Shown piece after piece: positions 22,205 through 40,530 of a stretch of 43,878 bases of DNA. Position numbers and translations under genes: made by a program. Position 1 is the stretch's first letter. Each line of letters opens with the position of its first letter. Source of the DNA: Bacteroidota bacterium (GTDB taxonomy: Bacteria > Bacteroidota > Bacteroidia > Chitinophagales > Chitinophagaceae); NCBI GenBank assembly GCA_018267545.1, contig JAFDYG010000439.1, forward strand, positions 1 to 43,878, written 5' to 3'. The notes beneath the pieces were generated by a model, which was not told the DNA's origin, did not search any database, and worked only from the letters and a program-made list of their open reading frames with translations.

Positions 22205-22255
22205 TTTTTTAAAAACGAAAACATGCAACATTTGCCGCTTATCCAACGTCACATA

Positions 22256-22287
22256 GTTACTGAAACTGTATAAGCGGTAACTGAAAC
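22256..22287 (+). promoter_or_regulatory. Direct repeat GTTACTGAAAC / GTAACTGAAAC, candidate LytTR site
   Basis: GTTACTGAAAC (22256-22266) and GTAACTGAAAC (22277-22287) match at 10 of 11 positions with a 21-bp period. LytTR regulators are known to bind two direct half-sites about two helical turns apart. The pair lies 43-74 bp before the LytTR gene. An overlapping inverted repeat, CCGCTTAT (22235-22242) and ATAAGCGG (22270-22277), frames it. Autoregulation is the natural reading, unproven. Confidence 0.45.
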
Positions 22288-22329
22288 GCGAATAATGATA
22301 ACTAATTTTGAAATATAAAACTTAGCCAC

Positions 22330-24447: not shown

Positions 24448-25805
24448 TAGATATCGTATTTACTTAGTCTCCGGTAAAGAGCCGTTCTGGTCAGCCCAAG
24501 CTCCTTGGCCGCCTTTGAAATGTTCCCGTTGTGCTTCTCGATCACCTTGAGAATAGCATTCTTCTCGATGGTGCTCAGCTTCAGCTCCTGCGGCTCATCC
24601 GCCTGAGGCTGCACGGTCTCGATCGGAGAGAAGATAAGGTCCTTGGCCTGCAGCACGTCTCCCTCGGCCATGATGACCGCCCGCTCGATCGTATACTGCA
24701 ATTCCCGGACATTGCCCGGATAGTGATAGGATTTGAGCTTCTCGATCGCCTTCGAATCGAAGTCGTGCTGAGGTTTCATGTATTTATTGGTGTAGATCCG
24801 GTCGAAATGCCGGGCCAGCAGAATGATATCATCCTCGCGCTTCCGCAACGGCGGCACCATGATCTCCACAGTGTTGATACGGTAGATCAGGTCCTTCCGG
24901 AATTTGTTTTCGTTTGCCAGCTCAGTCAAAGGCACATTGGTGGCGCAGATCAGCCGGATATCGATCGGCGTGGCCTGGTTGGCCCCGAGACGGGTAACCA
25001 TGCGGTTCTGAAGAACCGTAAGCAGCTTGGCCTGCTGATGCAACGAGATGTTCCCGATCTCATCCAGGAAGAGCGTCCCCCCATTCCCCGACTCGAACCG
25101 GCCCACCCGGTCCTCACGGGCATCCGTAAAGGCCCCCTTCTTATGACCGAATAGCTCGCTTTCGAATAGGGTCTCCGTAAGAGCGCCCACGTCTACCTTT
25201 ATATAGGGCTTCTCCGCCCGAAGGCTATGCTGGTGAATCGCCTTTGCGATCAGGTCCTTTCCCGTACCATTCTCACCCAGGATCAGGATATTGGCGTCGG
25301 TAGGAGCAATTTTCTCGATTTTAAAGAAAATATCCCGCATGACTTCCGACTCGCCCAGCAGCTCCGACCCAATCACCGAATCCGAAGATTCCTCCTTGCC
25401 TCCGTTCCGCTTGGGGTCATTCTTGCGCAAAGCGTCCTTGATCGTAGTGATCAGCCGCTCATTATGCCAGGGCTTTACGACAAAATCCGCCGCGCCTTCC
25501 TTCAAAGACCGGACGGCAAGATCGATGTCCCCATAGGCCGTAATCATAATGACCGCCGCAGTCGAACCAAACTCCTTTATTTTTCTCAGCCAGAACAGCC
25601 CCTCGTTCCCCGTATTGATGCTGCTATTGAAATTCATGTCGAGCAGGATAAGGTCGAAGCTGCGCTTGGAAAGAATAGACCGCATATTCTCCGGGTTCTT
25701 CTCCGTCACCACATCCGCTGCCTCGGTCTTTAGCAACAGTCGCACCGCGGTCAAAACATCCGTATCATCGTCGATAACAAGTATGGAAGCATTTTTCAGA
25801 TTCAT
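24447..25805 (-). CDS. NtrC-type sigma-54 enhancer-binding response regulator
   Basis: A 452-residue activator with a receiver domain (residues 5-125, phosphoacceptor D56 in LILLDMNF, K111 in FVVKPW) and an AAA+ domain (about 145-375). The AAA+ domain shows Walker A GENGTGKD (177-184), the sigma-54 contact loop GAFTDA (224-229) and Walker B LFLDE (245-249). A C-terminal Fis-type HTH follows (KNAILKVIEKHNGNISKAAKELGLTRTALYRRL). I chose the ATG at 25805; the long upstream extension to 25994 has no domain character and crosses two hairpins. The usual GAFTGA is GAFTDA here. It is divergent from the HlyD operon and is the obvious candidate to bind the twin repeats at 25987-26024 and 38229-38266. 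Confidence 0.93.
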   Translation of the reverse strand: MNLKNASILVIDDDTDVLTAVRLLLKTEAADVVTEKNPENMRSILSKRSFDLILLDMNFNSSINTGNEGLFWLRKIKEFGSTAAVIMITAYGDIDLAVRSLKEGAADFVVKPWHNERLITTIKDALRKNDPKRNGGKEESSDSVIGSELLGESEVMRDIFFKIEKIAPTDANILILGENGTGKDLIAKAIHQHSLRAEKPYIKVDVGALTETLFESELFGHKKGAFTDAREDRVGRFESGNGGTLFLDEIGNISLHQQAKLLTVLQNRMVTRLGANQATPIDIRLICATNVPLTELANENKFRKDLIYRINTVEIMVPPLRKREDDIILLARHFDRIYTNKYMKPQHDFDSKAIEKLKSYHYPGNVRELQYTIERAVIMAEGDVLQAKDLIFSPIETVQPQADEPQELKLSTIEKNAILKVIEKHNGNISKAAKELGLTRTALYRRLSKYDI

Positions 25806-25853: not shown

Positions 25854-25865
25854 CAAGTCATTAGA

Positions 25866-25912
25866 GAATGTTGCTGAATGGCTAATTTTTTTATGCCATT
25901 CATGCAACATTC
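25866..25912 (-). promoter_or_regulatory. 17-bp stem-loop at the 5' end of the enhancer-binding gene transcript
   Basis: GAATGTTGCTGAATGGC (25866-25882) pairs with 25895-25912 over 17 base pairs with a single bulged A, closing a 12-nt AT-rich loop. It sits directly downstream of the predicted minus-strand promoter, so the transcript would begin with this hairpin. A second hairpin (25835-25853) follows in the same leader. Confidence 0.6.
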
Positions 25913-25920
25913 GGTAACTA

Positions 25921-25986: not shown

Positions 25987-26024
25987 TGTATCAAAACCGG
26001 ACAGTTCTTGTATCAAAAATGAAC
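25987..26024 (+). promoter_or_regulatory. Twin 16-bp direct repeats upstream of the HlyD operon (enhancer site)
   Basis: TGTATCAAAACCGGAC (25987-26002) and the degenerate copy TGTATCAAAAATGAAC (26009-26024) have a 22-bp period. Exactly the same 16-mer occurs twice with the same period at 38229-38266, ahead of the second ABC operon. Each unit has a weak outer dyad (TGT-N11-ACA in the first copy). The location, 91 bp before a sigma-54-like element and next to an enhancer-binding-protein gene, fits an upstream activating sequence. Confidence 0.75.
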
Positions 26025-26077
26025 TATAAAAGGGCCAGATTGCACCTAATCATCTGTAAATCATTAGGCTTATATTC

Positions 26078-26092
26078 TGGCATGTGTTTGAT
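26078..26092 (+). promoter_or_regulatory. Sigma-54-like promoter of the HlyD operon
   Basis: TGGCATGTGTTTGAT resembles the -24/-12 consensus TGGCACG-N4-TTGC but has three rather than four bases between the two blocks and TTGA in place of TTGC. The same variant occurs at 38319. The predicted leader is about 130 nt and holds a hairpin with a T-run (26126-26155). Confidence 0.55.
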
Positions 26093-26125
26093 AGACTATC
26101 GATTGGAATTTTCTCATGTGTAGTC

Positions 26126-26155
26126 CTCCTGGTATTTTTATACTGGGGGTTTTTT
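26126..26155 (+). terminator. Leader hairpin with T-run, candidate attenuator
   Basis: CTCCTGGTAT (26126-26135) pairs with ATACTGGGGG (26140-26149), 10 base pairs including three G-U, followed by TTTTTT. It lies between the sigma-54-like element and the hlyD start, so it would end or modulate transcription in the leader. A related word recurs at 38343-38362 in the other operon's leader. Confidence 0.45.
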
Positions 26156-26219
26156 AAAACAAAGAGGGCCGTAGAAAAGCCCCAAACGATAGTAAATCAA
26201 AATATTTATTTCTTTTTTT

Positions 26220-27479
26220 ATGGTTGACATTGTTAGACAGAAAAAGACTTGGACCACTAAACGCATAATGACGATTGGCGGTATCGTTGCCCTGGCCTTC
26301 TTGATCGGCGGAAGTTTTTATTTTACCTCCGGAAAATCGAAGTTGAACGTTGATTTAGAACGCATTACGGTTAGTGAAGTGACCAAGGGACCCTTCCAGG
26401 AGTCTATCCCCCAAAACGGAACCGTACTCCCTCTGACCACCATCTACCTGGTAACTCCCGACGGCGGACGGGTCGATCAGAAATTCGTGGAAGACGGCGC
26501 GATTCTTAAAAAAGGCGACCCTATCCTGAAATTGAACAATACCGAGCTGGAGATGAACCTGGCCAATAATACAACAACCGTATCCAGTATGCTGGCCCAG
26601 ATGCAGTTTTCTAAAGTAACCGCCCAGCAGAACACGGTTAACAAGCTGACGAATATGGCCGACGTCGAGCTCTTGTTCAAGGAAGCCGAAAGGGTGTACA
26701 ACCTCGACAAGCGTCTCTATGAGCAGAAAGTCATCGGCTCCCAGGAATGGCAGACCGCCCAGAATAACTATAACTACCTTTCCCAGAAGAGGAAGCTCAC
26801 CCAGGAGATTCTCCACCAGGACACCCTCTCCCGCGCACAGCAGGAGGAGCAGGATAAGAGATCCCTGGAAGGCGCACAGCAGACGCTCGCCATCCTGAAG
26901 AGCCGGGTCAACGACCTCGTCCTCCGGGCCCCGGTTGACGGTCAGCTGACCTCCCTCGACGCGGAAATCGGTCAGTCTAAAACACCCGGCGCACCCCTCG
27001 GACAGCTGGACGTGCTCGACGGCTTCAAAGTACGGCTCTCCGACGTGGACGAACACTATATCAACCGCGTCTTCACCGGACAAACCGGCACCTTTACGTT
27101 CAACGATACGGCTTACAAGCTGAAGATCGTAAAAGTATATACCCAGGTAACCAACGGCCGCTTTATGGTGGACATGAACTTCGTCGGAAAAGTACCCAAG
27201 GGCATCCGCAAGGGACAAACCCTTCAGATCACCCTGGCGCTCAGCGACGAGACCACCGCTGTCCTGGTTCCCAAGGGCGGATTCTACCAGCAGACCGGCG
27301 GAAACTGGATCTTCAAGATCAGCGAAGACGGCAAGACCGCCTATCGCGTTGACATCCAGCTGAACCGTCAGAATACGGACTATTACGAAGTAATTTCCGG
27401 GTTGAAACCTGGAGATAAGGTTATAACTTCCAGCTACGAAACCTATGGCAACATCCAGGAATTAGTATTGAAAAAGTAA
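26220..27479 (+). CDS. HlyD/MacA-type periplasmic adaptor protein
   Basis: A 419-residue membrane-fusion protein anchored by one N-terminal membrane segment (about residues 17-37). It has a first lipoyl half (GTVLPLTTIYLVTPDGGRVDQKFVEDGAILKKGDPILKL), a long helical hairpin (about 100-220, RVYNLDKRLYEQKVIGSQEWQTAQNNYN) and the second lipoyl half (LVLRAPVDGQLTSLDAEIGQ). A beta-barrel and membrane-proximal domain follow (VPKGGFYQQTGGNWIFKI). It bridges inner-membrane MacB-type permeases to a TolC-like channel. It is the first gene of the export locus and lies downstream of the twin enhancer repeats. No SD is obvious; the ATG follows an AT-rich leader. Confidence 0.93.
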   Translation: MVDIVRQKKTWTTKRIMTIGGIVALAFLIGGSFYFTSGKSKLNVDLERITVSEVTKGPFQESIPQNGTVLPLTTIYLVTPDGGRVDQKFVEDGAILKKGDPILKLNNTELEMNLANNTTTVSSMLAQMQFSKVTAQQNTVNKLTNMADVELLFKEAERVYNLDKRLYEQKVIGSQEWQTAQNNYNYLSQKRKLTQEILHQDTLSRAQQEEQDKRSLEGAQQTLAILKSRVNDLVLRAPVDGQLTSLDAEIGQSKTPGAPLGQLDVLDGFKVRLSDVDEHYINRVFTGQTGTFTFNDTAYKLKIVKVYTQVTNGRFMVDMNFVGKVPKGIRKGQTLQITLALSDETTAVLVPKGGFYQQTGGNWIFKISEDGKTAYRVDIQLNRQNTDYYEVISGLKPGDKVITSSYETYGNIQELVLKK

Positions 27480-27574
27480 CCATTCGACTGTAACATCCGT
27501 TCAACCCCTATCGTCCATTTAGGAGGCCCTTCCAGGGCTTCGCCCAAAGGACAAACATTATAAAAACTAACGTT

Positions 27575-27781
27575 ATGAAACAGAAATTTCTCTACATCCT
27601 GGCCCTTCTGCTCTGCGTGAGCACCTTCGCCTCGTCGAACGAACGCGCCAGGAACTGCCGCCACGTGTGCCCCAAAGCCGCCACAGCAGCAACCCCGGCC
27701 ATCCCGGCAACCGTCACGGAGGACGCGGCTGAAATTTCCGAAGTTTCTCCCTTACCCGTCCTTAGACTTCTATCCATATAA
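27575..27781 (+). CDS. Small secreted peptide of unknown function inside the export operon
   Basis: A 68-residue ORF begins with a clear signal peptide (MKQKFLYILALLLCVSTFA), with a likely cleavage after TFA. The mature part is about 49 residues, with two cysteines in NCRHVC and an alanine/proline/threonine-rich middle (KAATAATPAIPATVTED). It fills most of the space between hlyD and the ABC ATPase, same strand, 95 bp after one and 38 bp before the other. I do not recognise a family. It could be a small accessory subunit, a transported or signalling peptide, or a lineage-specific periplasmic protein; a spurious ORF is possible but the signal peptide argues against it. Confidence 0.6.
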   Translation: MKQKFLYILALLLCVSTFASSNERARNCRHVCPKAATAATPAIPATVTEDAAEISEVSPLPVLRLLSI

Positions 27782-27819
27782 TAAAACACTACACTCACAT
27801 CACCTAAACAGCTTATATT

Positions 27820-28497
27820 ATGATCAAGATCAGTGAACTCCAAAAATCTTACCGCACGGAAGAAGTGGAAACTATCGCACTGAACAGACTCAGCTTCGAG
27901 GTAAAAGAAGGCGAGTTCGTCTCTGTCATGGGCCCCTCTGGCTGTGGCAAATCGACCCTCCTGAATATCCTCGGCCTCCTGGACGATCCCGATGGCGGCA
28001 GCTTCCTGTTCAACGGCACCGAAGTAGCCCACTTCAACGAGCGCAAACGCGCCGACCTGCGTAAACGCAACATCGGCTTCGTCTTCCAGAGCTTCAACTT
28101 GATCGATGAGCTGACCGTATTCGAAAACGTAGAGCTTCCCCTGATCTATCTCGGCGTAAAAGGCCCCGAAAGAAAGCAACGCGTGGAAGTGGTCCTTGAC
28201 AAGATGCAGATCATGCACCGTCGCAACCACTACCCCCAGCAGCTCTCCGGTGGTCAGCAACAGCGTGTAGCCGTAGCCCGCGCCGTAGTCAATAACCCCA
28301 AGCTGATCCTGGCGGATGAACCGACAGGTAACCTGGACTCCTCGAACGGTAACGAAGTAATGCAGCTCCTCACCGACCTCAACGAGCAAGGTACGACCAT
28401 CGTCATGGTCACCCACTCCGAACACGACGCCCGCTACAGCCACCGCATCATCCGCATGCTGGACGGACAGACGGTTACGGAGAACATTCTCGTATAG
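27820..28497 (+). CDS. MacB/LolD-type ABC transporter ATPase (ATPase 1)
   Basis: A 225-residue ATP-binding subunit with Walker A GPSGCGKST (about residues 39-47), Q-loop GFVFQSFNLIDELTVFENV, signature LSGGQQQR, Walker B LILADE, D-loop GNLDSS and H-loop VTHS. All catalytic motifs are intact. It powers the permeases encoded immediately downstream. The sequence is of the MacB/FtsE class, which drives mechanotransmission to periplasmic partners rather than transport through the membrane. Confidence 0.95.
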   Translation: MIKISELQKSYRTEEVETIALNRLSFEVKEGEFVSVMGPSGCGKSTLLNILGLLDDPDGGSFLFNGTEVAHFNERKRADLRKRNIGFVFQSFNLIDELTVFENVELPLIYLGVKGPERKQRVEVVLDKMQIMHRRNHYPQQLSGGQQQRVAVARAVVNNPKLILADEPTGNLDSSNGNEVMQLLTDLNEQGTTIVMVTHSEHDARYSHRIIRMLDGQTVTENILV

Positions 28498-28568
28498 TCA
28501 TAAGCCGGTTACGGAACGCCATCGAAGAAAATTTTATAACTGGTCGTCGCTGACCTAACACCTATGTT

Positions 28569-31004
28569 ATGCTTAAAAATTATCTAAAGATAGCCTTCCG
28601 TAACCTGGCTAAACATAAATTCATCTCGTTCATCAATATCTTCGGTCTCACAGTCGGCCTTACCTGCTGCCTGCTGATCCTCACCTACATCCTGCACGAG
28701 ACCAGCTACGACAGATACCACAAACAAGCCGACAACATCTGGCGCGTCACCCGCAGCTGGAACAACAAAGAAGGCATCGTCTCCCTCCACCTCGGAGCCG
28801 TAGCTCCCCCCTTCGGCCCCCTCCTCCAGAACGACTTCCCGGACATTCAGAAGATGACCCGGGTCCTGCTCACCGGCACACAGCCCATGCGCTACGAAGA
28901 CAAGGTCTTCAACGAAAAGGACGTCTATTTTGCCGACAACAACCTCTTTAGCGTTTTCGACGTACCCCTCCTCCAGGGAGACCGCCGCAACGCCCTTACT
29001 GACCCTTTTTGCGTGGTCCTGACGCCAGCCGTAGCCCATAAATACTTCGGCAACGCCGACCCCATCAACAAGGTCATCCGCCTCAACAACCAATATAACT
29101 TCAAGGTCACCGGCATCTTCGAGCCGCTCCCCGGTAATTCCCATTTCCACCCCGAAATCATGCTTTCCTTCAATACACTAAAGGATAGCACCATCTACGG
29201 TGAGAAAAACCTGGCTAGCAACTTCGGCAACAACGCCTTCTTTACCTACCTCGTGCTGCCAAAAAACTATCCGGTTAAGAATATGGAGGCGCAGTTCCCT
29301 GCCTTTATCGACCGGCACATGCCCGCCAATAAAAAAGACCCGGCAGCCAAGCCTTCCCAATATACCCGGCTCTACCTCCAACCCCTGACCGATATTCACC
29401 TCCGCTCACACCTCGACGAAGAGCTCGAAGAAAACGGCGACATCAAACGCGTCTATATCTTCGGCGCCATCGCCCTCTTCATCCTGCTCATCGCCTGTAT
29501 CAACTATATGAACCTGTCGACCGCCCGCTCAACCCTCCGCGCCAAAGAAATCGGCATCCGGAAGGTCGCCGGCGCACACCGCCAGGAGATCATCTTCCAG
29601 TTCCTGAGCGAATCGGTCCTCGTCTCCTTCCTCGCACTCATCCTGGCCGCCGCCCTGTGCTGGCTCACACTGCCCTCGATCAATACGGTAACAGGTCTGC
29701 AGCTTTCCATCCAAAGCCTGATCCAACCCGCCGTCTTAATCCCCATCCTTCTCACGCCAGTCCTGGTTGGTCTCCTCTCTGGCGTCTACCCCGCCCTGTT
29801 TATGTCCTCCTTCCAGCCCTCCAAGGTGCTGAAAGGCCTGTTCAAAGCCGGCAACGGCACGGTATCCTTCCGGAAGGTCCTCGTCGTCACTCAGTTTGCC
29901 GTCTCCATCGTACTTCTCATCAGCACAGCCATCGTCTTCCAGCAGCTGCACTATATGCAAAGCACTTCCCTTGGCTTTAGCAAAGAGCACGTCCTGGTCA
30001 TGGACTACAACGTCGGCCTCAACAATACCTACGAGTCCTTCCGCACCCGCCTTTTGCAGGACTCCCGCGTCCTGCAGCTTTCCCGCTCCTCCCGCGTACC
30101 CAGCGGCCGCCTGCTGGACCAAAGCGGCGCCTCTACCGAAAGCGGAGACTCTCTTCGCCCCGTCAGCGCAGACATCAAATTCCTGGCCGTCGACCACGAC
30201 TTTATCAATACGTATAAGATCCCCATCGTCGCCGGTCGCGACTTCTCCCGCAACTACACCACCGACAGCACCAACTACGTGCTGAACGTAGCCGCTACAA
30301 AGGCCCTGGGAATCAAAACCCCAGAGGACCTCGTCGGACATAGCTTCGCCTACGGTGGCGCCAAAGGCCGGGTCATCGGTATCATGGGCGACTTCAACTT
30401 CGAATCCATGCACCAGCAGATCGTTCCCCTGATCCTGACCATGCCCACCGCCAAACAAGCCTATAATTTCAATAATATCTCCATAAAAGTCGCCGGTAAC
30501 GACGTCACAGGAGCCCTGGCCAATATCGAAAAAGTCTGGAAGACCTATCTACCCGAAATTCCCTTCCAATACACTTTCCTCGACGAGAAATTCGACCAGC
30601 TCTATAAGTCCGAACAGAAACAAGGTAGCCTCTTCACCTGCTTCGCCGGCATCGCCATTTTCATCGCCTGTCTCGGCCTCCTCGGTCTTTCCGCCTTCTC
30701 CATCTCCCAACGAATCAAAGAGATCGGGGTACGGAAAGTGCTCGGCGCCAGCACCGGCAGCATCGTGGGCCTGCTGTCCCGCGACTTCCTGAAGCTAGTC
30801 GCCATCGCCGCCCTCATCGCCTTCCCCATCGCCTGGTATACGATGCACAGCTGGCTCCGCGACTTCGCCTATCGCATCTCCATCGAATGGTGGGTCTTTT
30901 TGATAGCAGGAATAGTCGCAGCATCGGTGGCCCTGATCACCATCAGCTTCCAGGCCATCCGAGCAGCGCTCGCCAACCCAGTAAAAAGCCTACGATCTGA
31001 ATGA
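28569..31004 (+). CDS. Long MacB/FtsX-type ABC permease (permease 1)
   Basis: An 811-residue inner-membrane permease. It has an N-terminal membrane segment (about residues 21-42), a large MacB periplasmic domain (45-280) and three membrane segments (about 285-425). A fifth segment, a second periplasmic domain (about 450-675) and three final segments (about 680-800) follow. Duplicated FtsX signatures are seen as AKEIGIRKVAGAHRQEI near 325 and IKEIGVRKVLGASTGSI near 718. This eight-segment form is about twice the size of a minimal MacB membrane domain and is common in Bacteroidota. It lies 71 bp after ATPase 1, and its stop overlaps the next permease start by ATGA. Cargo is unknown: drugs, peptides or lipids are all possible. 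Confidence 0.93.
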   Translation: MLKNYLKIAFRNLAKHKFISFINIFGLTVGLTCCLLILTYILHETSYDRYHKQADNIWRVTRSWNNKEGIVSLHLGAVAPPFGPLLQNDFPDIQKMTRVLLTGTQPMRYEDKVFNEKDVYFADNNLFSVFDVPLLQGDRRNALTDPFCVVLTPAVAHKYFGNADPINKVIRLNNQYNFKVTGIFEPLPGNSHFHPEIMLSFNTLKDSTIYGEKNLASNFGNNAFFTYLVLPKNYPVKNMEAQFPAFIDRHMPANKKDPAAKPSQYTRLYLQPLTDIHLRSHLDEELEENGDIKRVYIFGAIALFILLIACINYMNLSTARSTLRAKEIGIRKVAGAHRQEIIFQFLSESVLVSFLALILAAALCWLTLPSINTVTGLQLSIQSLIQPAVLIPILLTPVLVGLLSGVYPALFMSSFQPSKVLKGLFKAGNGTVSFRKVLVVTQFAVSIVLLISTAIVFQQLHYMQSTSLGFSKEHVLVMDYNVGLNNTYESFRTRLLQDSRVLQLSRSSRVPSGRLLDQSGASTESGDSLRPVSADIKFLAVDHDFINTYKIPIVAGRDFSRNYTTDSTNYVLNVAATKALGIKTPEDLVGHSFAYGGAKGRVIGIMGDFNFESMHQQIVPLILTMPTAKQAYNFNNISIKVAGNDVTGALANIEKVWKTYLPEIPFQYTFLDEKFDQLYKSEQKQGSLFTCFAGIAIFIACLGLLGLSAFSISQRIKEIGVRKVLGASTGSIVGLLSRDFLKLVAIAALIAFPIAWYTMHSWLRDFAYRISIEWWVFLIAGIVAASVALITISFQAIRAALANPVKSLRSE

Positions 31005-33436
31005 GAATGATTCGCTCCTATCTCACCCTCGTCCTTCGCGGTCTTTATAGAGACAAGAGCTATTCTTTTATCAACATCTTCGGCCTCGCCATGGGCCTCT
31101 CGGTTTGTCTTCTCATCACCCTCTACGTGATGGACGAGCTGAGCTACGACCGGTTCAACGAAAAATCGGCCCGCATCTTCCGGATCAACGGAGATATCAG
31201 TGTCCACGGCAACGGCGCCAACGATATTTACTCTCCCGCCCCCATGGGCGCCACCCTGGCCCATGAGTATCCAGCCGTAGAGAACTATACCCGCATCATC
31301 GACGTACGCGACATCTTAGTCAAAAATGGCAACACGACCATTATCGAGCCTGACTGTATCCTCGCCGACTCCACCCTCTTCGACGTCTTTACCCTCCCCT
31401 TCGTCGCCGGAGACCCACACACCGCACTGCTCCGTCCCTTCGACATGGTCATATCCGAAAGCGCCGCAAAAAAATATTTTCATTCTGCCTCCACCGACGT
31501 CCTGGGTAAGACTCTCCACGTCAACAACGAAAGCGACTACCGTATCACCGGCATCATCAAAGACATGCCGAAACAGTCTCATTTCAGGGCCAACTTTATC
31601 CGCTCCATAGCCGAGCTGAACTACGACCGCCAGCCCGACGCCTGGCTAAACAACGGCTTTATCACCTACGTCCTTCTACGACCCGGCGCCACCCAGTCCA
31701 ACCTCGACCATTCCCTGACCCAACTGACAAAAAAATACATCATCCCCGGCATCCAGGACCTCTTCAACGGGCAAACCGGTGACCTGCTCGACAAAAAGAA
31801 TCGCTTCAATTATTACTCCATACCCCTTACCCGAATCCACCTCTGGTCACACCTTCCCTCCGAAACAGGAAACGGCAACAGCCTCTACGTCTATATCTTC
31901 ACCATCATCGCCGCCTTTATCCTGCTGATCGCCTGCGTCAACTTCATGAACCTGTCGACAGCCCGGTCCGCCAGACGCGCCAAAGAAGTCGGCATCCGGA
32001 AAGTCCTGGGCTCCCTCCGAAGCGAGCTGATCACCCGCTTCCTCACAGAATCCCTGCTGACCAGCGTCCTGGCCATGCTCATCGCTCTTGTCCTGGCCAT
32101 CCTTCTGCTTCCCGGCTTCAACCGCCTCGCCGATAAACAAATCACTTTCTCCTTCCTCACCGAAGGCTGGCTCCTGCCCTACCTGCTCGGCATTACCTTA
32201 ATCGTCGGCCTGCTCGCAGGCCTCTATCCGGCTTTCTTCCTCTCGGCCTTTATGCCCCAGCGCGTGATGAAAGGAAACTTTTCCGCCGGATTCCGCAGCG
32301 GCTGGCTCCGCAACGCCCTGGTGGTCTTCCAGTTCACCATCGCCATCATCCTCATCATCGGGACCATGGTGATCTACCGACAGCTCGACTACGTCCGGCA
32401 CAAGGACATCGGCTACAACAGAGAACAGATCCTGATCGTCCGCAATACCTATTCCCTCTGGACCCACGCCAAAAACTTCCAGAAAGAGGTAGAGCACCTG
32501 CCCGGCGTCCTGGGCACGACGATGACCTTCTTCCTGCCCACCTACTCCGGCTCCATGAGCTCCGTCTACTACAAAGACGCCGCCCTCTCCGCTGACCAGA
32601 CCGTCCTGCTCTCCGACTGGCCCGTCGACGCCAATTATATTTCTGTGCTGGGCATGAAGATGCTCGATGGACATAACTTCGAACCCGGGAACCCCACCGA
32701 CTCCTCCGGCGTCATCATAAACGAAACAGCAAGCAACCTACTGGGTTACAACAACCCCATCGGCGCAACCATCTACGACCGCCAGTACGACGGCCGCGTC
32801 GTCCCCCATAAGATCCTCGGCGTAGTAAAAGACTTCAATTCAGGTACCCTGCACAGTAAGATCCCACCCATGATGCTGCACCTGGCCGAAGAACGCGGCT
32901 CCCTCGCCATCCGCGTCAAAACCACCGACATGCCCGGCCTCATCGCCCATATAGAAAAAGCCTTCCGCGCCTGGGACAAGATGAGCGACCAGCCATTCCC
33001 CTATGAATTCATGGACCAGGCCTTTAATCGACTCTACCGCGCCGACCAACGCACCGGCACCCTCTTCTGCGTCTTCGCCGCCTTCGCCATCTGTATCGGC
33101 TGCCTCGGCCTCTTCGGCCTGGTAAGCTACGCCGCAGAGCAGCGGACCAAAGAGATCGGCATCCGTAAGGTCCTCGGCGCATCCACCGGCAATATCCTGG
33201 GTATGCTGTCCAAAGAGTTTATGCTCTTGATAGTGCTGTCTTCCGCTATCGCCTGCCCGATCGCGGGATGGGGCATGGACAAGTGGCTGGATGACTTTGC
33301 CTATCGTACCGATATCAGCTGGTGGATCTTCGCCGCCGCCGGAGGAATGGCAGCCTTGATCACCGTATTTACCATCGGCCTGCAAGCGCTTCGCGCAGCC
33401 CGGACCAAACCCATCACCAGCCTTAGAAACGAATAA
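31001..33436 (+). CDS. Long MacB/FtsX-type ABC permease (permease 2)
   Basis: A second 811-residue paralogue with the same layout. An N-terminal segment follows RDKSYSFINIFGLAMGLSVCLLI, then comes the first periplasmic domain. The motif ARRAKEVGIRKVLGSLRSEL lies near residue 325, the second half begins at GWLRNALVVFQFTIAIILIIG, and QRTKEIGIRKVLGASTGNI is near 715. It starts within the last codons of permease 1 (31001-31004) and precedes permease 3 by 13 bp, so expression is tightly coupled. Whether it pairs with permease 1 as a heterodimer or homodimerises cannot be read from the sequence. Confidence 0.92.
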   Translation: MRMIRSYLTLVLRGLYRDKSYSFINIFGLAMGLSVCLLITLYVMDELSYDRFNEKSARIFRINGDISVHGNGANDIYSPAPMGATLAHEYPAVENYTRIIDVRDILVKNGNTTIIEPDCILADSTLFDVFTLPFVAGDPHTALLRPFDMVISESAAKKYFHSASTDVLGKTLHVNNESDYRITGIIKDMPKQSHFRANFIRSIAELNYDRQPDAWLNNGFITYVLLRPGATQSNLDHSLTQLTKKYIIPGIQDLFNGQTGDLLDKKNRFNYYSIPLTRIHLWSHLPSETGNGNSLYVYIFTIIAAFILLIACVNFMNLSTARSARRAKEVGIRKVLGSLRSELITRFLTESLLTSVLAMLIALVLAILLLPGFNRLADKQITFSFLTEGWLLPYLLGITLIVGLLAGLYPAFFLSAFMPQRVMKGNFSAGFRSGWLRNALVVFQFTIAIILIIGTMVIYRQLDYVRHKDIGYNREQILIVRNTYSLWTHAKNFQKEVEHLPGVLGTTMTFFLPTYSGSMSSVYYKDAALSADQTVLLSDWPVDANYISVLGMKMLDGHNFEPGNPTDSSGVIINETASNLLGYNNPIGATIYDRQYDGRVVPHKILGVVKDFNSGTLHSKIPPMMLHLAEERGSLAIRVKTTDMPGLIAHIEKAFRAWDKMSDQPFPYEFMDQAFNRLYRADQRTGTLFCVFAAFAICIGCLGLFGLVSYAAEQRTKEIGIRKVLGASTGNILGMLSKEFMLLIVLSSAIACPIAGWGMDKWLDDFAYRTDISWWIFAAAGGMAALITVFTIGLQALRAARTKPITSLRNE

Positions 33437-33449
33437 ACAACCAACGCTT

Positions 33450-35840
33450 ATGATAAAAAATTTTCTACAAACCGCCTGGCGCCGCCTCTGGCAATATCGC
33501 TCCGCCAGCTTCCTCAGCATCGCGGGTCTTTCCATTGGAATGACCTCCGCCCTGCTCATCTTCCTCTGGGTCCAGAACGAGATGTCATATGACAGCTATA
33601 ACCCGCAAGCCGATCGGACTTATCGTATCACCGCCTACCTGACCAACGTAAAATGGGTCTGGGCAACCGTCCCCCTTCCCACCGCCGCCGCCGTACAGCA
33701 AAAAATGCCCGAAATAGAAAAGACTACTAATATCCGCGGCACAGGAAACATCGCCTTTCACATCGGCAACGAATACTTCCCCGAGAAAAAATGCGCCTAT
33801 ATCGACAGCAACTGGTTCGACTTCTTTCACTATGACTTCCTCGAAGGCAATCCCAAAAATTTCTTCAACGACCCATTCAGCATCCTCCTCACCGAATCGA
33901 CGGCCAAAAAATATTTCGGCTCACGCGAAGCCATCGGTCAGGCCATCCAAATCGATACGATCAACTACCGGGTAGCCGCCGTCGTAAAAGACAACCCCGC
34001 CAATTCCAGCTTCCAGTTCGACGTCCTGATTTCCCTGCAAAGCTATCTGTCCAATCCGGCGGCGTTCAAAAATGACGCCACGTATAACAACTATAACTAT
34101 CGCACTTTTCTACGCCTCCGGCCCGGCGCCAACCCGAAAAAGGTCGCAGCCGGTATCGCCGGCGTCTTTCCCCAGTCCGGCAACGCAACAAAGACCACCT
34201 TCGATCTCATCTCCCTAAAAGATATGCACTTCGAAACCGGCCTGACGAACCAGAACGACATCCAGCCGGCCAGCATTAAGTCGGTCTATATCTTTAGCGT
34301 GCTCGGCGTCTTCCTCCTCGTCATCGCCTGTATCAACTACGTCAACCTGACCACAGCCAGGGCAAGCCGCCGCGCCAAAGAGGTCAGCATACGCAAGGTC
34401 ATCGGAGCCGGCAAAGCCAGCCTGTTCTCACAATTCATATTGGAATCCCTGTTGGTAAGCTTAATTTCACTCATAATTACCATCATACTCGTCCGTCTCT
34501 CCCTGCCCCTCTTCCGGCAGCTGACGGAGAAGAATTTTACCGACCCGCTCCTTCATCTCTTCACCTGGAAGCTGATCGGCCTTACCCTGCTCGCCGCCAC
34601 CCTACTGAACGGCATCTATCCCGCGCTCATGCTCGCCTCCTTCAAACCCCTCAGCGTCTTCAAAGGCCTCAACGTCCTGAAGGTGAAGGACGCCTGGCTC
34701 CGGAAAGGACTCGTCGTATTACAATTTACCTTCTCGGTGCTGCTGATCATCAGCACCATTATCATCCAGAGGCAGATGAATTATATCCAAAGCCTCGACC
34801 CCGGATATAGCCGCTCCCAGCTGTTTTCCTTTACGCTTCCATGGTCGATCTCCAAAGGCAAATCCGAGACCGAACGGGAGAGCATGTTCTCCGACGTCCG
34901 CCATGAGCTCCTGAAATACACCAGCGTCGCCGGCGCAACGGCCGCCAGCCAGTCCATCGTAAACCTCCAGAGCTCCAACGCCGGCTCCGCCGACTGGGAC
35001 GGACACGACACAAGCTTCCGCCCGACCGTCTTCCAGCTTTCTGCCGACCCCTACTATAAGGACGTGCTGCAGATCCAGCTGGCACAGGGCCGCTGGTTCC
35101 AGCCCGACAGCAAACTGGACCAGCACAATTTTGTCCTCAACGAAACGGCGATAAAAGACTTCAAAATACACACCCCCGTCCTGGGCCAGCGCTTCACCTT
35201 CCAGGGCGACACAGGACAGATCATCGGGGTCGTAAAAGATTTTCACTTCGCGAGCCTGCACAAACGCATCGGAGACATGGTCTTTATGAACAATCCGGGC
35301 TGGCGCAACACAATCTTCGTAAAGACACAGGCAGGCAAGACGCCCCAGGCCCTCGCAGCGGCCAAGGCGCTCTGGCAACGGCTTGCCCCGGACAAACCTT
35401 TTGAATATATCTTCCAGGATGAGCAGTTCGACCAGCTCTATAAGGACGACCGCCGCCTGTCTACCATGATCTGGGTCTTCTCCGTCATCGCCATCTTTAT
35501 CTCCTGCCTCGGCCTCTTTGGCCTCGCAGCCTTCGCCGCCGAACAACGGACCAAGGAGATCGGCATCCGCAAAGTCCTGGGCGCCACCGTCGGCAACCTG
35601 GTCACGCTCCTTTCCACCGATTTTCTCCGGCTCGTGCTGCTGTCAATCCTCATCGCCAGCCCCGTCGCCGGCTGGCTCATGCACCAATGGTTGCAGGATT
35701 TCGCTTATCACGTACCTTTGAGCGCATGGATCTTCCTGCTGGCTGGTTCGATGGCCCTGTTGATCGCCATCCTGACCATTAGCTTCCAGGCCCTGAAAGC
35801 AGCCCGCAGCAACCCCGTGAAGAATTTACGAACAGAATAA
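33450..35840 (+). CDS. Long MacB/FtsX-type ABC permease (permease 3)
   Basis: A 796-residue paralogue: an N-terminal membrane segment in SFLSIAGLSIGMTSALLIFLWV, a MacB periplasmic domain, SRRAKEVSIRKVIGAGKASL near residue 308, the second half from AWLRKGLVVLQFTFSVLLIIS, and QRTKEIGIRKVLGATVGNL near 700. It sits 13 bp after permease 2 and 10 bp before permease 4. The C-terminal NPVKNLRTE ending is shared with permease 4, and similar endings occur in permeases 1 and 2. Confidence 0.92.
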   Translation: MIKNFLQTAWRRLWQYRSASFLSIAGLSIGMTSALLIFLWVQNEMSYDSYNPQADRTYRITAYLTNVKWVWATVPLPTAAAVQQKMPEIEKTTNIRGTGNIAFHIGNEYFPEKKCAYIDSNWFDFFHYDFLEGNPKNFFNDPFSILLTESTAKKYFGSREAIGQAIQIDTINYRVAAVVKDNPANSSFQFDVLISLQSYLSNPAAFKNDATYNNYNYRTFLRLRPGANPKKVAAGIAGVFPQSGNATKTTFDLISLKDMHFETGLTNQNDIQPASIKSVYIFSVLGVFLLVIACINYVNLTTARASRRAKEVSIRKVIGAGKASLFSQFILESLLVSLISLIITIILVRLSLPLFRQLTEKNFTDPLLHLFTWKLIGLTLLAATLLNGIYPALMLASFKPLSVFKGLNVLKVKDAWLRKGLVVLQFTFSVLLIISTIIIQRQMNYIQSLDPGYSRSQLFSFTLPWSISKGKSETERESMFSDVRHELLKYTSVAGATAASQSIVNLQSSNAGSADWDGHDTSFRPTVFQLSADPYYKDVLQIQLAQGRWFQPDSKLDQHNFVLNETAIKDFKIHTPVLGQRFTFQGDTGQIIGVVKDFHFASLHKRIGDMVFMNNPGWRNTIFVKTQAGKTPQALAAAKALWQRLAPDKPFEYIFQDEQFDQLYKDDRRLSTMIWVFSVIAIFISCLGLFGLAAFAAEQRTKEIGIRKVLGATVGNLVTLLSTDFLRLVLLSILIASPVAGWLMHQWLQDFAYHVPLSAWIFLLAGSMALLIAILTISFQALKAARSNPVKNLRTE

Positions 35841-35850
35841 AAGCCGTCAC

Positions 35851-38226
35851 ATGAACAAAGAGCTCATACCCGCCCTGCGTAGCTTCCGGAAATACCCGGT
35901 CTTCTCCCTGATCAATCTCGGGGGGCTTTCCATCGGTATCGCCGCTTCCTTCATCCTGCTTATTTATTCCCAACGCGAATTCAGCACCGACCGCCACTTC
36001 AAGGATGCCAACCGTATCGCCCGCATCGGCACCGACTTCTTTCACATGGGCCCCTTCGCCATCAGTCAGCCCCAATTACCCCTCCTGGCAAAAGCAGGCT
36101 GTAAAGACGTCGAAAACGTGACTTCTATCTCTATTGAGGATAAGACATCCGTTCGGCTCAGCACACAGGAACGGGCCTTCAATGATATCCTCCCCTATTC
36201 TATCGACGCTGAATTTTTTACCGTTTTCTCCTACCAGGCATCGGCCGGCTCCATTCCCCAAATGGGACTCGCCCCCGGCGAAACCATCCTATCCGAAAAC
36301 AGCGCCCATAAATTTTTCGGAAACACGGACCCCATCGGCAAGACGCTGCTTATAGGAAAGAAAATGACACCCTACAAGGTCGTCGCTGTACTAAAGGAAG
36401 GTTTCGAAAAATCTCACCTCGAACCACAGCTGCTGCTGCCCCGCTCTACCGCCGCACCCGCCAATCCAAACAACTGGATGTCCGCCGCACTATACAATTA
36501 TGTCAAGCTAAAACCCCAGGGGTCTATCGCAGGCCTCAACGCCTGGCTCGAAACTCTGCGGAGAAAGGTTATCTATCCTTCCAGCGGCGCTACAATCTCC
36601 TACCAGGAATGGACAGCCAGCAACATGGCCGTCAGCTTTACCGTACAACCCCTTACCAGTATCTATTTTGACAATAACGCAAAATTCGACACTTCCCCCG
36701 GCGGTAACCTCACGCAGGTCCGACTGCTCAGCACTATCAGCATCCTGCTGATCCTTCTGGCCATCATCAATTACATCAACCTCGTCACCGCCCGCGCCTC
36801 CATCCGCGCCAAGGAGATGGGTCTCAAAAAAACCTATGGCGCCCCACGCAGCACCCTGGTCGGACAATTGCTGAAGGAATCCATTCTCTTCAGCCTGCTC
36901 GCCATGTTGATCGCCTGTGGACTCATCCAGGTCATTCTCTTCCTCTATCAATATTCTACCGGCGCCGCCCTCACCGGCCCCATCCCCTTCCTGTCGGCCA
37001 ATTATATCTGGCTGCTGTTCTTCTCCCTGGCAGTAGGCGCGCTCGCCGGACTCTACCCAGCGTTCTATCTCACCGGGCTACGCCCCCTGCTGACCATCCG
37101 CTCCACCACGACCAGCGGCATGGGCAGTAATTCGCACATCCGCAATGGCCTCGTAACCGTCCAGTTCGTAATCGCCACCGGTCTCGTATTCCTGTCTTTC
37201 GTCGTATATAGCCAGCTGTTATACATGAAGAACAAGGACAAAGGTTTTCAATCCGAAGGGATCGTATTGGTCGATAATATCGAGGGGATGAAAGATAGAG
37301 CCACCACATTCCAGCAGCTGATCGAACAGCAATCCCAGGTCGCCAGCACCAGCATCTGCGAACGCATCCCCGGCAGCAAGGGTGTCGCCATGTATAGCTA
37401 TCGTACCGCCGCCATGCCAAAACCCTTGAGCATCCAGACCTTCCCGGTCGATGACCGCTATATTTCTACCATCGGTATGCACCTTAGCGACGGCCGCGAT
37501 TTCAATAGACACCTAGCCTCCGATACCAACGCCCTTATCTTGAATGAATCTGCCGTAGCAGCGCTGGGACTTTTCAACCCGGTCGGCAGCGTCATCAATG
37601 GCAGTGAAAAGGTGATCGGCGTAGTAAAAGACTTCAATTATGCCTCCCTGCACGAGAAGATCGGCCCCGCCATCCTCCGCTATTCCACCCGACCCCGGAC
37701 ACTCGCCATTCGTCTCCGCGGCGGCAACACCGCCTCCTTCCTCGACTGGCTCGGACGCGCCAGCAAAGATTTCCAGACAGAAGCACCCACCATCAGCTTC
37801 CTCGACGACAATTTCGCCAGGCTGGCCGAAAAAGAACGACTGCTCGGACAAGCGATCAGCTTCTTTACGATACTGGCAATCATCCTCGCCACCCTGGGTC
37901 TGATCGGACTGACCATCTTTACCATCGAAAGACGGATGAAGGAGATCGGCATCCGCAAGGTGCTCGGCGCTACACGCTCCGATATTCTCAACCTGATTTC
38001 CAGCCAGTTCATCCGGCTCGCCGCCATCGCTTCGGGTATCGCCCTGCCGGTCAGCTGGTGGCTCGCCAACCGCTGGCTAAATAATTTTGCCTATCGTATC
38101 TCCATCAACGTCGGTACCTTTTTCCTGACCGAGGCCCTAATCCTGCTTATTGCCTTTGCAGTGATCGGCCTGCTGACCCTTCGGGCGCTCGCAGCCAACC
38201 CGGTCAAAAATCTCCGGACAGAATAG
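35851..38226 (+). CDS. Long MacB/FtsX-type ABC permease (permease 4)
   Basis: A 791-residue paralogue, the most divergent of the four. The first half has SIRAKEMGLKKTYGAPRSTL in place of the usual EIGIRKV form, and the second half has ERRMKEIGIRKVLGATRSDI. Membrane segments cluster at about residues 18-38, 285-415, 430-450 and 670-785. It ends the first export operon; just three bases separate its stop codon from the twin repeats that drive the second operon. No terminator hairpin is visible between them, so read-through into ATPase 2 is possible. Confidence 0.92.
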   Translation: MNKELIPALRSFRKYPVFSLINLGGLSIGIAASFILLIYSQREFSTDRHFKDANRIARIGTDFFHMGPFAISQPQLPLLAKAGCKDVENVTSISIEDKTSVRLSTQERAFNDILPYSIDAEFFTVFSYQASAGSIPQMGLAPGETILSENSAHKFFGNTDPIGKTLLIGKKMTPYKVVAVLKEGFEKSHLEPQLLLPRSTAAPANPNNWMSAALYNYVKLKPQGSIAGLNAWLETLRRKVIYPSSGATISYQEWTASNMAVSFTVQPLTSIYFDNNAKFDTSPGGNLTQVRLLSTISILLILLAIINYINLVTARASIRAKEMGLKKTYGAPRSTLVGQLLKESILFSLLAMLIACGLIQVILFLYQYSTGAALTGPIPFLSANYIWLLFFSLAVGALAGLYPAFYLTGLRPLLTIRSTTTSGMGSNSHIRNGLVTVQFVIATGLVFLSFVVYSQLLYMKNKDKGFQSEGIVLVDNIEGMKDRATTFQQLIEQQSQVASTSICERIPGSKGVAMYSYRTAAMPKPLSIQTFPVDDRYISTIGMHLSDGRDFNRHLASDTNALILNESAVAALGLFNPVGSVINGSEKVIGVVKDFNYASLHEKIGPAILRYSTRPRTLAIRLRGGNTASFLDWLGRASKDFQTEAPTISFLDDNFARLAEKERLLGQAISFFTILAIILATLGLIGLTIFTIERRMKEIGIRKVLGATRSDILNLISSQFIRLAAIASGIALPVSWWLANRWLNNFAYRISINVGTFFLTEALILLIAFAVIGLLTLRALAANPVKNLRTE

Positions 38227-38228
38227 AG

Positions 38229-38266
38229 TGTATCAAAACCGGACACTTTTTGTATCAAAACCGGAC
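38229..38266 (+). promoter_or_regulatory. Twin 16-bp direct repeats upstream of ATPase 2 (enhancer site)
   Basis: TGTATCAAAACCGGAC occurs at 38229-38244 and, perfectly, at 38251-38266, a 22-bp period. It is the same 16-mer and period as at 25987-26024. The repeat begins three bases after the permease 4 stop and ends 53 bp before the sigma-54-like element. Confidence 0.8.
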
Positions 38267-38318
38267 TTTAATCTATATAATTGATAGCTAGTATATTGCG
38301 TATCACTGCTTTGCAAAC

Positions 38319-38333
38319 TGGCATGTGATTGAC
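38319..38333 (+). promoter_or_regulatory. Sigma-54-like promoter of the ATPase 2-TolC operon
   Basis: TGGCATGTGATTGAC matches the element at 26078 at 13 of 15 positions, including the preceding C and the shortened spacer. It lies 90 bp from the first enhancer repeat (91 bp in the other copy) and 65 bp before the ATPase 2 start. Confidence 0.55.
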
Positions 38334-38383: not shown

Positions 38384-39049
38384 ATGATAGATCTCAAGCG
38401 CATCTCAAAATGGGTCAATGTAGGAGGAAAACCGAATTTCATCTTAAAGGATATCAACCTGAATATAAAAGAAGGGGAATTCGTCTCCATCATGGGACCT
38501 TCCGGCTCCGGTAAATCCAGCCTGCTCAATATCATCGGCATGCTGGACGATTCCTCGGAAGGAGAATATTTCTTCCTGGAGCAGGCCGTACACTCCCTGA
38601 AAGAAAAACAACGCTCTCAGCTTTATAAACAATACATCGGCTTCGTCTTCCAGGCTTATCACCTCATCGATGAGCTGACCGTATATGAAAATATCGAGAC
38701 GCCGCTCATCTACCAAAATATCAAGTCGTCCGAACGTCAGGCCATGGTCGCCGACATCCTCGACCGCTTTCAGATCGTAGGAAAAAAGGACCTCTTCCCG
38801 ACCCAGCTGTCCGGCGGTCAGCAACAGCTCGTAGGCATCGCCCGCGCGCTCATCGGCAAACCCAAGCTGCTCCTGGCCGACGAACCTACCGGCAACCTCA
38901 ACTCCCGTCAGGGCGAAGAGATCATGGAGCTTTTCAAACAGCTGAACAACGAAGGCGTGACGATCATCCAGGTAACTCACTCGGAAAAGAACGCCGCTTA
39001 TGGCTCGCGTATCATCAACCTGCTGGACGGAAGAGTGGACCTCAGTTAA
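38384..39049 (+). CDS. MacB/LolD-type ABC transporter ATPase (ATPase 2, variant motifs)
   Basis: A 221-residue ATP-binding protein with Walker A GPSGSGKSS, Q-loop GFVFQAYHLIDELTVYENI, signature LSGGQQQL, Walker B LLLADE, D-loop GNLNSR and H-loop VTHS. Compared with ATPase 1 the signature ends in L rather than R and the D-loop aspartate is asparagine; the catalytic glutamate and histidine are kept. It is the first gene of the second export operon, with tolC 23 bp downstream. No permease is in its own operon, so it probably serves the four upstream permeases, alone or paired with ATPase 1. Confidence 0.93.
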   Translation: MIDLKRISKWVNVGGKPNFILKDINLNIKEGEFVSIMGPSGSGKSSLLNIIGMLDDSSEGEYFFLEQAVHSLKEKQRSQLYKQYIGFVFQAYHLIDELTVYENIETPLIYQNIKSSERQAMVADILDRFQIVGKKDLFPTQLSGGQQQLVGIARALIGKPKLLLADEPTGNLNSRQGEEIMELFKQLNNEGVTIIQVTHSEKNAAYGSRIINLLDGRVDLS

Positions 39050-39072: not shown

Positions 39073-40530
39073 ATGTCTAATATCATGCAACGAGGAAAAT
39101 TAGCGCTGGCAGGAGTATTCTTTTTGTTTCTTTTTCAGTACAAGACCTTTGCCCAGACGGCTACCGATTCAGGCACCGTCTATACTTTACAACAATGCAT
39201 CGACAGCGCTATAAAGAATAACATACCCGTCAACCAGGCCGACTTCACCATGCGCGGCGCAAAGCTCACAGCCAGACAGCAATGGGCGACCATGCTTCCC
39301 AGCATCAGCGCCAATGCCAGCTATGGTAGCAACGCCGGTAAGAGTATCAACAACTTCACCAATAGCTACGTCAACCAGCAGTATGGCTCCGGCCAGGCGC
39401 AGATCAACGGCAGCTGGGTGATCTTCAACGCCTTCAGCATCCAGAATTTCATCAAGTCCTATGCCCTGCTCTACGAAGCAAATCACGCCGACTATCAGCA
39501 GGCCAAGGACCAGGCCACCGTCAACGTCATCCTGGCCTATATCAGCGTCCTCAGCAGCAAAGAGCAATTGAGCGCAGCCCGCACCCAGGCCGAAGCCTCC
39601 CGCAGAAGAGAGGCCCTGATGAAGATCCAAAACGACGAGGGCGCCATCGCTCCATCGGACTACACCGACATCAAAGGACAGCTCGCCTCGGACGAGCTTA
39701 CCGTGGTCAATACCGAAAATACCCTGGAGAGCAATAAGCTGCTGCTGGCACAGCTCATGAATATTCCCTATTCACCTAATCTCAACTTTACTTCTCTCGG
39801 CGAAAGCCTTACACCGGCGCCCTACAACTATTCTGTAGACCAGATCTATCAGGGCGCCCTGACCAATCTGGCGCAGGTGCAATCCGCCCGTCTCCACCTG
39901 GAAAGCGCGGAGAAATACGTAAAAGCTACCCACGGTACCCTGTATCCTACCCTGTCTGCACAAGCGCAGGTAAACACCAACTATTCGACCGTTCCTTCAT
40001 CCGTTTACCAGAATACGACCAACGAGCAGACTAACAGCTTTGTAAAGACCGGGACCGGAGAGACCCTGTATGTCATCTCTCCTCAAGACCATTATACGTC
40101 TCACAAAATCCCTTTTAAAGACCAGTTCGACAACAACCGGTTTACTTATGTAGGGCTGAACCTGAGCATCCCCATCCTTCAGGGATTGACCAGAAGAACC
40201 AACTATAAACAAGCACAGGTACAGCGCGACCTTGCCGCCTTCACGCAGAAGACAACGCTGACCCAGCTAAAGCAAAATGTAGAGTCCTACTATGTACAGA
40301 TGAACAACAACTATCGTACGTACAATACGATGCAGGTGCAGGTGGAGAACTACCTGGCCTCCTTCAACGCAGCCAGCATCAAGTTCGACGCCGGCGCCAT
40401 GAAATCCCTGGATTATATTATTTACAAGACAAATATCGACCGCGCCCGGATCAACCTGATCCAGGCCAAATACAACTATATTCTCCAAACAAAGGTCTTG
40501 GATTACTTCCAGGGCAAGCTTACCTGGTAG
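39073..40530 (+). CDS. TolC-like outer-membrane efflux channel
   Basis: A 485-residue outer-membrane factor with a signal peptide ending near TFAQ (residues 1-28). Two repeats of the long-helix/beta-strand TolC pattern follow: QQCIDSAIKNNIPVNQADFTMRGAKLTARQQWATMLPSISANASYG in the first half, and LSIPILQGLTRRTNYKQAQVQRDLAAFTQKTTLTQLKQNVESYYVQM in the second. It completes a tripartite exporter with the HlyD adaptor and MacB-type permeases. It is co-transcribed with ATPase 2 (23 bp gap) and followed by a terminator at 40549. Confidence 0.93.
   Translation: MSNIMQRGKLALAGVFFLFLFQYKTFAQTATDSGTVYTLQQCIDSAIKNNIPVNQADFTMRGAKLTARQQWATMLPSISANASYGSNAGKSINNFTNSYVNQQYGSGQAQINGSWVIFNAFSIQNFIKSYALLYEANHADYQQAKDQATVNVILAYISVLSSKEQLSAARTQAEASRRREALMKIQNDEGAIAPSDYTDIKGQLASDELTVVNTENTLESNKLLLAQLMNIPYSPNLNFTSLGESLTPAPYNYSVDQIYQGALTNLAQVQSARLHLESAEKYVKATHGTLYPTLSAQAQVNTNYSTVPSSVYQNTTNEQTNSFVKTGTGETLYVISPQDHYTSHKIPFKDQFDNNRFTYVGLNLSIPILQGLTRRTNYKQAQVQRDLAAFTQKTTLTQLKQNVESYYVQMNNNYRTYNTMQVQVENYLASFNAASIKFDAGAMKSLDYIIYKTNIDRARINLIQAKYNYILQTKVLDYFQGKLTW

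Follow-up and report, generated by a model that had tools for sequence, protein, structure and literature searches.

An upstream site shared by dozens of dispersed permease genes suggests one sigma-54 regulon, perhaps with a shared ATPase pair, in a member of the Chitinophagaceae

The window analysed in this study is a whole stretch of 43,878 nucleotides (contig JAFDYG010000439.1, positions 1 to 43,878) from a Bacteroidota bacterium of the family Chitinophagaceae, whose 7.3-Mb genome (assembly GCA_018267545.1) is in 553 contigs. Pfam searches found that the window encodes an adaptor, ATPases, MacB-type permeases and a TolC-family protein, in agreement with the gene identities given by an initial annotation. 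The parts needed for a tripartite ATP-binding cassette (ABC) exporter are encoded together in this gene group, hereafter called the hub, and export itself is predicted. The hub is divergent from the gene of an NtrC-family regulator, next to which lies a sensor kinase gene (Table 1). Short paired DNA motifs occur both here and at dozens of pump genes dispersed over the genome, which points to joint control of these genes by one regulator in these soil bacteria, and perhaps to one shared pair of motor proteins.

The hub and its two promoters

The initial annotation had reported four copies of TGTATCAAAACCGGAC, one of them degenerate, in two pairs with a 22-bp period, and this was confirmed at positions 25987, 26009, 38229 and 38251. 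With up to 3 mismatches allowed, these four were the only matches in the window, the copy at 26009 having 3 mismatches, while 100 dinucleotide shuffles of the window gave a mean of 0.28 matches and a maximum of 2, none reaching 4. The distances reported from the first repeat of each pair to the sigma-54-type elements, 91 bp to TGGCATGTGTTTGA and 90 bp to TGGCATGTGATTGA, were exact. The proximal repeat, 69 or 68 bp before TGGCA, occupies the position of the site found in the permease promoters outside the window, and the distal repeat of the window promoters is an additional full copy. The two hub ATPases are 53% identical to each other.

Table 1. Features of the hub and its surroundings in the window
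Feature	Position	Strand	Basis or remark
Sensor histidine kinase	23101..24447	-	Pfam HATPase_c; N-terminal part with two predicted membrane helices and a very short loop between them (translation)
NtrC-family response regulator, sigma-54 enhancer-binding protein	24447..25805	-	Pfam Response_reg, Sigma54_activat and HTH_8; proposed site binder
Distal activating site (predicted), upstream of adaptor gene	25987..26002	+	Motif match
Proximal, degenerate activating site (predicted)	26009..26024	+	Motif match; 69 bp before TGGCA
Sigma-54-type promoter TGGCATGTGTTTGA	26078..26091	+	Starts 91 bp after first repeat
Terminator-like hairpin and T-run in the adaptor-gene (hlyD) leader, between sigma-54-type promoter and hlyD	26126..26149	+	
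HlyD/DarC-like periplasmic adaptor	26220..27479	+	Pfam and NCBIfam
ATPase 1, MacB/LolD/DarD-like	27820..28497	+	Pfam and NCBIfam; proposed shared motor
Duplicated MacB/FtsX permease	28569..31004	+	Pfam MacB_PCD/FtsX
Duplicated MacB/FtsX permease	31001..33436	+	Pfam MacB_PCD/FtsX
Duplicated MacB/FtsX permease	33450..35840	+	Pfam MacB_PCD/FtsX
Duplicated MacB/FtsX permease	35851..38226	+	Pfam MacB_PCD/FtsX
Distal activating site (predicted), upstream of ATPase 2	38229..38244	+	Motif match
Proximal activating site (predicted)	38251..38266	+	Motif match; 68 bp before TGGCA
Sigma-54-type promoter TGGCATGTGATTGA	38319..38332	+	Starts 90 bp after first repeat
ATPase 2	38384..39049	+	Pfam and NCBIfam; proposed second shared motor
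OEP, TolC-family outer-membrane protein	39073..40530	+	Pfam and NCBIfam

Anatomy and genomic distribution of the site

With up to 2 mismatches, the 16-mer occurred 25 times in the genome, compared with 6 times for the same pattern read backwards. Inspection of the surroundings showed that most of the 25 occurrences were followed by TGGCA and then by the start of a MacB-type permease. The genome contained 136 MacB_PCD matches, from which 80 permease gene entries were derived, and 77 remained after three with too little upstream sequence were dropped. The motif (up to 4 mismatches, 300 bp upstream) was present at 35 of these 77 genes, while its antisense was found at none and the reversed motif at one. 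When sites were picked by the site alone within 450 bp, [TCA]GGC[AT] stood exactly 67–71 bp past the site in 28 of 36 cases. Moreover, the combination of the site with GGC at 66–72 bp was found at 37 of the 77 permease genes versus 4 for the antisense.

The promoter anatomy was derived from 36 promoters, namely 34 of permease genes and the two of the window; within this set the GGC and the 67–71 bp range hold partly by construction, the unselected figure being the 28 of 36 given above. Their consensus is CGGACA-N5-TGTATCRAAAnCGGACA, followed after about 70 bp by a sigma-54-type TGGCAy. The half-sites repeat every 11 bp, and the first half-site is the usual remnant of the distal repeat. Two full copies of the repeat are retained by the window promoters and by few others. 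Of the 36 promoters, 29 had 69 or 70 bp between site and -24 element, 67–71 bp being the selection rule. From TGG to the chosen ATG, the distance was 26–29 bp in 8 of the 34 permease promoters, 39–50 bp in 19 and 56–88 bp in 7. Given this closeness, many permease messages would carry leaders of only 0–20 nt.

An element similar to the binding site of integration host factor (IHF), YAANNNNTTGATW, was found at a constant distance of 31 bp upstream of TGG, where 19 of the 36 promoters matched 7 or more of its 9 positions, compared with 0–3 promoters at 23 other offsets tried. Its mean best score was 7.19 versus 6.30 (sd 0.11) in 500 shuffles. The mean score in reverse orientation, 6.75, also exceeded this forward-shuffle mean, and AT-richness therefore explains part of the signal. 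The element was rejected as a universal promoter feature, as the two window promoters do not have it at the fixed offset.

A sequence-only profile (R1), built without structure from the 36 promoters, found 49 sites in the genome at E ≤ 1e-4. They included the two window promoters and 44 sites before MacB/FtsX-type permeases, of which 43 were within 100 bp of the permease start and one was 226 bp before it. Two further sites were located at contig ends, where the N-terminus of a permease could still be read, and only one (G000 C463:10134-10231, E = 1.6e-5) had no permease start. The 13 sites outside the training set comprised 10 before permeases, the two at contig ends and the unexplained one. 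The motif is thus predicted to be the upstream activating sequence of a genome-wide sigma-54 regulon, for which the sequence evidence is strong.

The regulator, the hub and sigma-54 proteins in related genomes

The regulator of the window contains a receiver domain, an AAA+ sigma-54 interaction domain and a Fis-type helix-turn-helix, all recognized by Pfam. At the sigma-54 contact loop, its translation has GAFTDA in place of the GAFTGA motif. Orthologs of it, 71–95% identical, were found in 33 of 35 genomes (G000–G034), where the next-best regulators were 41–43% identical. It was not found in G003, which is 80% complete, and in G033, which also had no R1 match.

The R1 profile was searched against 58 genomes with stricter filters. 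Matches were present in 32 of the 33 genomes of the same genus (the source genome included), in one of the two family members of other genera and in none of the 23 genomes of other families, this last result being weak evidence because of the stricter filters and the genus-trained profile. In total, 759 matches were found over G000–G034, and genomes with more permease-domain candidates tended to have more of them (Spearman 0.81, 35 genomes). A permease was present at 18 of the 19 R1 loci inspected in relatives.

The initial annotation had linked the sites to the divergent regulator within a local regulon. The first part of this claim was supported in relatives, where sites and promoters accompany the divergent regulator and adaptor genes; the local extent was not. 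In 27 of 30 regulator loci the adaptor gene was preceded by the paired site (second copy with up to 4 mismatches), and in 24 of the 30 TGGCA followed 68–70 bp past the proximal site. Similarly, among 80 named loci from Chitinophagaceae, Mucilaginibacter, Pedobacter, Pontibacter, Rufibacter and others, the adaptor gene was divergent to the regulator in 57. The site (up to 2 mismatches) was found in 53 of these 57 and both controls in none; a site pair was found in 39 and the site with GGCA at 66–72 bp in 47. At least 7 of the 80 named loci are contigs of same-genus genomes, and subtraction of the 6 such loci among the 57 leaves the site in 47 of 51. At the Pontibacter, Rufibacter and Sabulibacter loci L299, L306, L309, L313, L318, L320 and L323–L326, the regulator is divergent to a permease or ATPase gene rather than an adaptor gene, and a weak profile match was seen at L309, L325 and partly L299.

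Across 20 relatives' hubs, three of them truncated at contig ends, the gene order where covered was regulator, adaptor, ATPase 1, one to at least six permeases, ATPase 2 and TolC. Among the nine hubs with ATPase 2 in view, the site pair was directly before ATPase 2 in six, one permease earlier in one and absent in two. The hairpin of the hlyD leader recurs with compensatory changes in 19 of 26 hub leaders from the genus and family set, with 9 double-change cells versus 3.3 in shuffles. It was unrecognisable in leaders from other genera. The fold of the whole leader was no better than that of shuffles (z 0.02), though the inner hairpin is conserved, and the hairpin is possibly an attenuator. 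Inverted repeats with 14-nt arms (86%) and a perfect 8-nt pair inside lie between the regulator start and the sites (25861–25917). Just past the hub kinase, at 21170–23088, lie genes for a LytTR response regulator and a His_kinase protein.

The genome contains two rpoN genes, 34% identical, each with its own orthologs in relatives. The second (L356:12850-14274, G000 C470) is located next to a gene for an outer-membrane beta-barrel protein and a Ku gene. In the canonical -12 element of sigma-54 promoters, a G stands ten bases after GG. Of the 34 permease promoters, 33 had this G at the canonical place. It was shifted one base towards GG in both promoters of the window, as well as in 22 of 24 promoters of hlyD and 6 of 8 of ATPase 2. 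RpoN could be counted clearly in 24 genomes, of which the 16 with two had 5–51 R1 matches and the 8 with one had 0–31 (Mann-Whitney p 0.0009, a statistic that ignores kinship); G001 was left out, as a single split gene could account for its two partial matches. Exceptions to this trend were G031 (one RpoN found, 31 matches) and G034 (two, 5 matches). In one-RpoN genomes many permeases form tandem arrays without their own sites. For instance, G026 (one rpoN found; L236, L362–L364) has long permease arrays near its hub that are mostly without sites, whereas the source genome has dispersed single genes. Some permease promoters inspected in one-RpoN genomes had G in both places, and that the two sigma-54 proteins serve two promoter classes is only a lead.

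Orphan permeases, ATPases and the proposed mechanism

The permeases are members of one paralogous family, 24–57% identical to the first of them. None of the 60 complete double-length permeases outside the window had an ATPase match within 300 bp, one had a match within 3 kb and three within 5 kb. At least one copy of the motif QRxKEIGIRKVLGA was present in 61 of 64 double-length permeases, and both copies were present in 32 (strict pattern); among the conserved permease blocks, the two copies take first and third place. In MacB, the major coupling helix between transmembrane helices TM2 and TM3 meets the ATPase, according to the part of a MacB review cited here (PMC5985334). Based on its place and on this account, the motif probably represents the major coupling helix.

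Across the hubs of relatives (tblastn), ATPase 1 was 88–99% identical (19 hubs) and ATPase 2 80–97% (9 hubs), the adaptor 62–87%, the permeases about 30–80% and TolC 34–54%. For comparison, a control ATPase paired with a permease of its own was 77–93% identical in 14 of the 20 genomes, the remainder being the source genome, which served as query, and five without an ortholog. ATPase 1 was more conserved than the control in all 14 genomes, by a median of 8 points, and ATPase 2 in 5 of 6. Such high conservation would be expected for a motor that fits many partners.

Sigma-54 promoters of the NtrC/glnA type, served by an NtrC-family enhancer-binding protein, are a known architecture. The promoters described here are similar to them in having an upstream enhancer-like site, a -24 TGGCA, a candidate -12 element, an IHF-like site between and an AAA+ response regulator. 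They differ in the tandem half-sites every 11 bp, the fixed distance of 67–71 bp in dozens of promoters and the many leaders of 0–20 nt. Similar to the darobactin exporter DarBCD (NCBIfam NF038007, NF038008 and NF038010) and MacAB-TolC, the hub combines an adaptor, a separate ATPase and duplicated permeases. Different from both, it has two ATPases and several permeases, with dozens more outside. The best NCBIfam models were DarD for ATPase 1 and DarC for the adaptor, DarB being second-best for the permease, and all scores were below the Dar equivalog cut-offs (298 of 375, 144 of 450 and 166 of 700 bits).

Permeases of the ADOP family, the name of which (TIGR03434) we take to mean acidobacterial duplicated orphan permease, are defined by the lack of any fused or adjacent ATPase gene. 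Similar to this family (NCBIfam TIGR03434), the genome has a large paralogous set of double FtsX permeases without an adjoining ATPase. All 60 scanned permeases matched the ADOP and DarB models below their cut-offs; for ADOP (622.3 bits) the scores were 298.1 and 302.1 bits where shown, and the best of the 60 (E 7.9e-101) was also far below. Different from ADOP, the genome described here offers a candidate ATPase pair as well as a common regulator, and the four hub permeases do stand with ATPases. One ATPase has likewise been proposed to serve several permeases in the case of MsmK, as described in the part of PMC4519317 cited here, but those are ABC importers of another type, whereas MacB-type permeases and a sigma-54 regulon are concerned here. 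PMC12316311 reports that sigma-54 promoters are enriched upstream of COG0577 permeases in Bacteroidia and terms this the first link; its main text contains neither "upstream activating" nor UAS, IHF or Chitinophag. Searches of open-licence PMC papers yielded no description of the site, the regulator or the hub. We consider this a real system that combines known kinds and is larger than first described.

Taken together, the regulator at 24447–25805 probably switches on, through a genome-wide sigma-54 regulon, the hub together with dozens of orphan permeases, which would rely on the ATPases of the hub; we have fair confidence in this reading. The kinase at 23101–24447 would phosphorylate the adjacent regulator. 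Bound at CGGACA-N5-TGTATCRAAAnCGGACA, the regulator would make contact with sigma-54 polymerase at TGGCAy, assisted in many permease promoters by a bend at the IHF-like site that lies 31 bp before TGGCA. In this way the regulator would turn on the window hub, the sole encoder of the adaptor, two ATPases and TolC, and simultaneously dozens of dispersed double MacB/FtsX permeases that have no ATPase gene of their own and would be powered by the hub ATPases. The adaptor and TolC may also serve the orphan permeases. The site, its spacing, its placement before permeases, its conservation with the regulator, the lack of neighbouring ATPases and the docking motif are read from the DNA; binding by the regulator, dependence on sigma-54 and sharing of the ATPases are the predicted steps.

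Several observations weigh against this interpretation. At the threshold used, about half of the permease genes have no site. Neither hub promoter has the IHF-like element at the fixed offset, and in both the -12 G stands one base closer to GG than it does in 33 of the 34 permease promoters. G020 carries the regulator and has zero R1 matches, and G024 and G026 have only 5 matches each versus 102–104 domain candidates. Only 2 of the 22 loci where no adaptor gene was seen up to 2 kb from the regulator, among them loci of Pontibacter and Rufibacter, had the consensus site. ATPase sharing, moreover, is proposed from conservation and from the lack of neighbouring ATPase genes in an assembly of 553 contigs, and LolD- and FtsE-like ATPases are encoded elsewhere in the genome.

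It is conceivable, although we think it rather unlikely, that the sites act as proposed while the orphan permeases use other ATPases or none and the hub ATPases serve the hub permeases only. Other MacB/LolD/FtsE-like ATPases, 39–44% identical to ATPase 2, are consistent with this, and FtsX-like proteins may also have non-transport roles. However, the ATPases nearest to the hub pair adjoin their own short permeases (C403, C518) or lie on C442, and the orphan permeases have the docking motif and the regulatory site in common with the hub. That the permease sites belong to another enhancer-binding protein, with the window regulator acting on the hub only or elsewhere, seems distinctly improbable. 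About 18 such proteins are encoded in the genome and another could bind, but the window regulator, the sole one followed across relatives, is divergent to the best paired sites, which are kept over many genera, and one consensus is common to hub and permease sites.

The local regulon of a single tripartite exporter, as initially annotated, is very unlikely and was rejected by the genome-wide searches. A scan for 22-bp pairs did find full double sites nearly exclusive to the window (3 places at 3 mismatches), but single sites are genome-wide, with 44 before permeases elsewhere, and the same site at the same distance is upstream of dozens of permease genes in this and in same-genus genomes. Nor is the motif scattered at random, as it is placed before permeases. 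Finally, sites passively carried along with copied permease genes would fit one paralogous family but are scarcely credible, since the permeases have diverged, the spacers are mostly not conserved whereas site, spacing and -24 element are, and the same sites stand at non-permease hub genes.

More tentatively, and in our view somewhat short of an even chance, the probable regulon described above might represent a one-to-many exporter, in which one kinase–regulator pair controls a hub, which supplies two ATPases as the shared motor along with adaptor and exit duct, together with dozens of interchangeable, dispersed orphan permeases. The two sigma-54 proteins may then split the promoters, GG-N9-G at the hub and GG-N10-G at the permeases, with the second RpoN found mainly where the dispersed regulon is large. 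If so, swapping of the permease set would alter the exported cargo.

It is a recognized puzzle that double FtsX/MacB permeases occur in large sets with no ATPase, as the name of the ADOP model states. Because the orphans have a regulatory address in common with the only locus that holds fitting ATPases, the question of which motor drives them becomes directly testable. This study offers candidates for the binding site, the regulator and the gene list of a sigma-54 regulon in Bacteroidota, where PMC12316311 offers statistical enrichment only.

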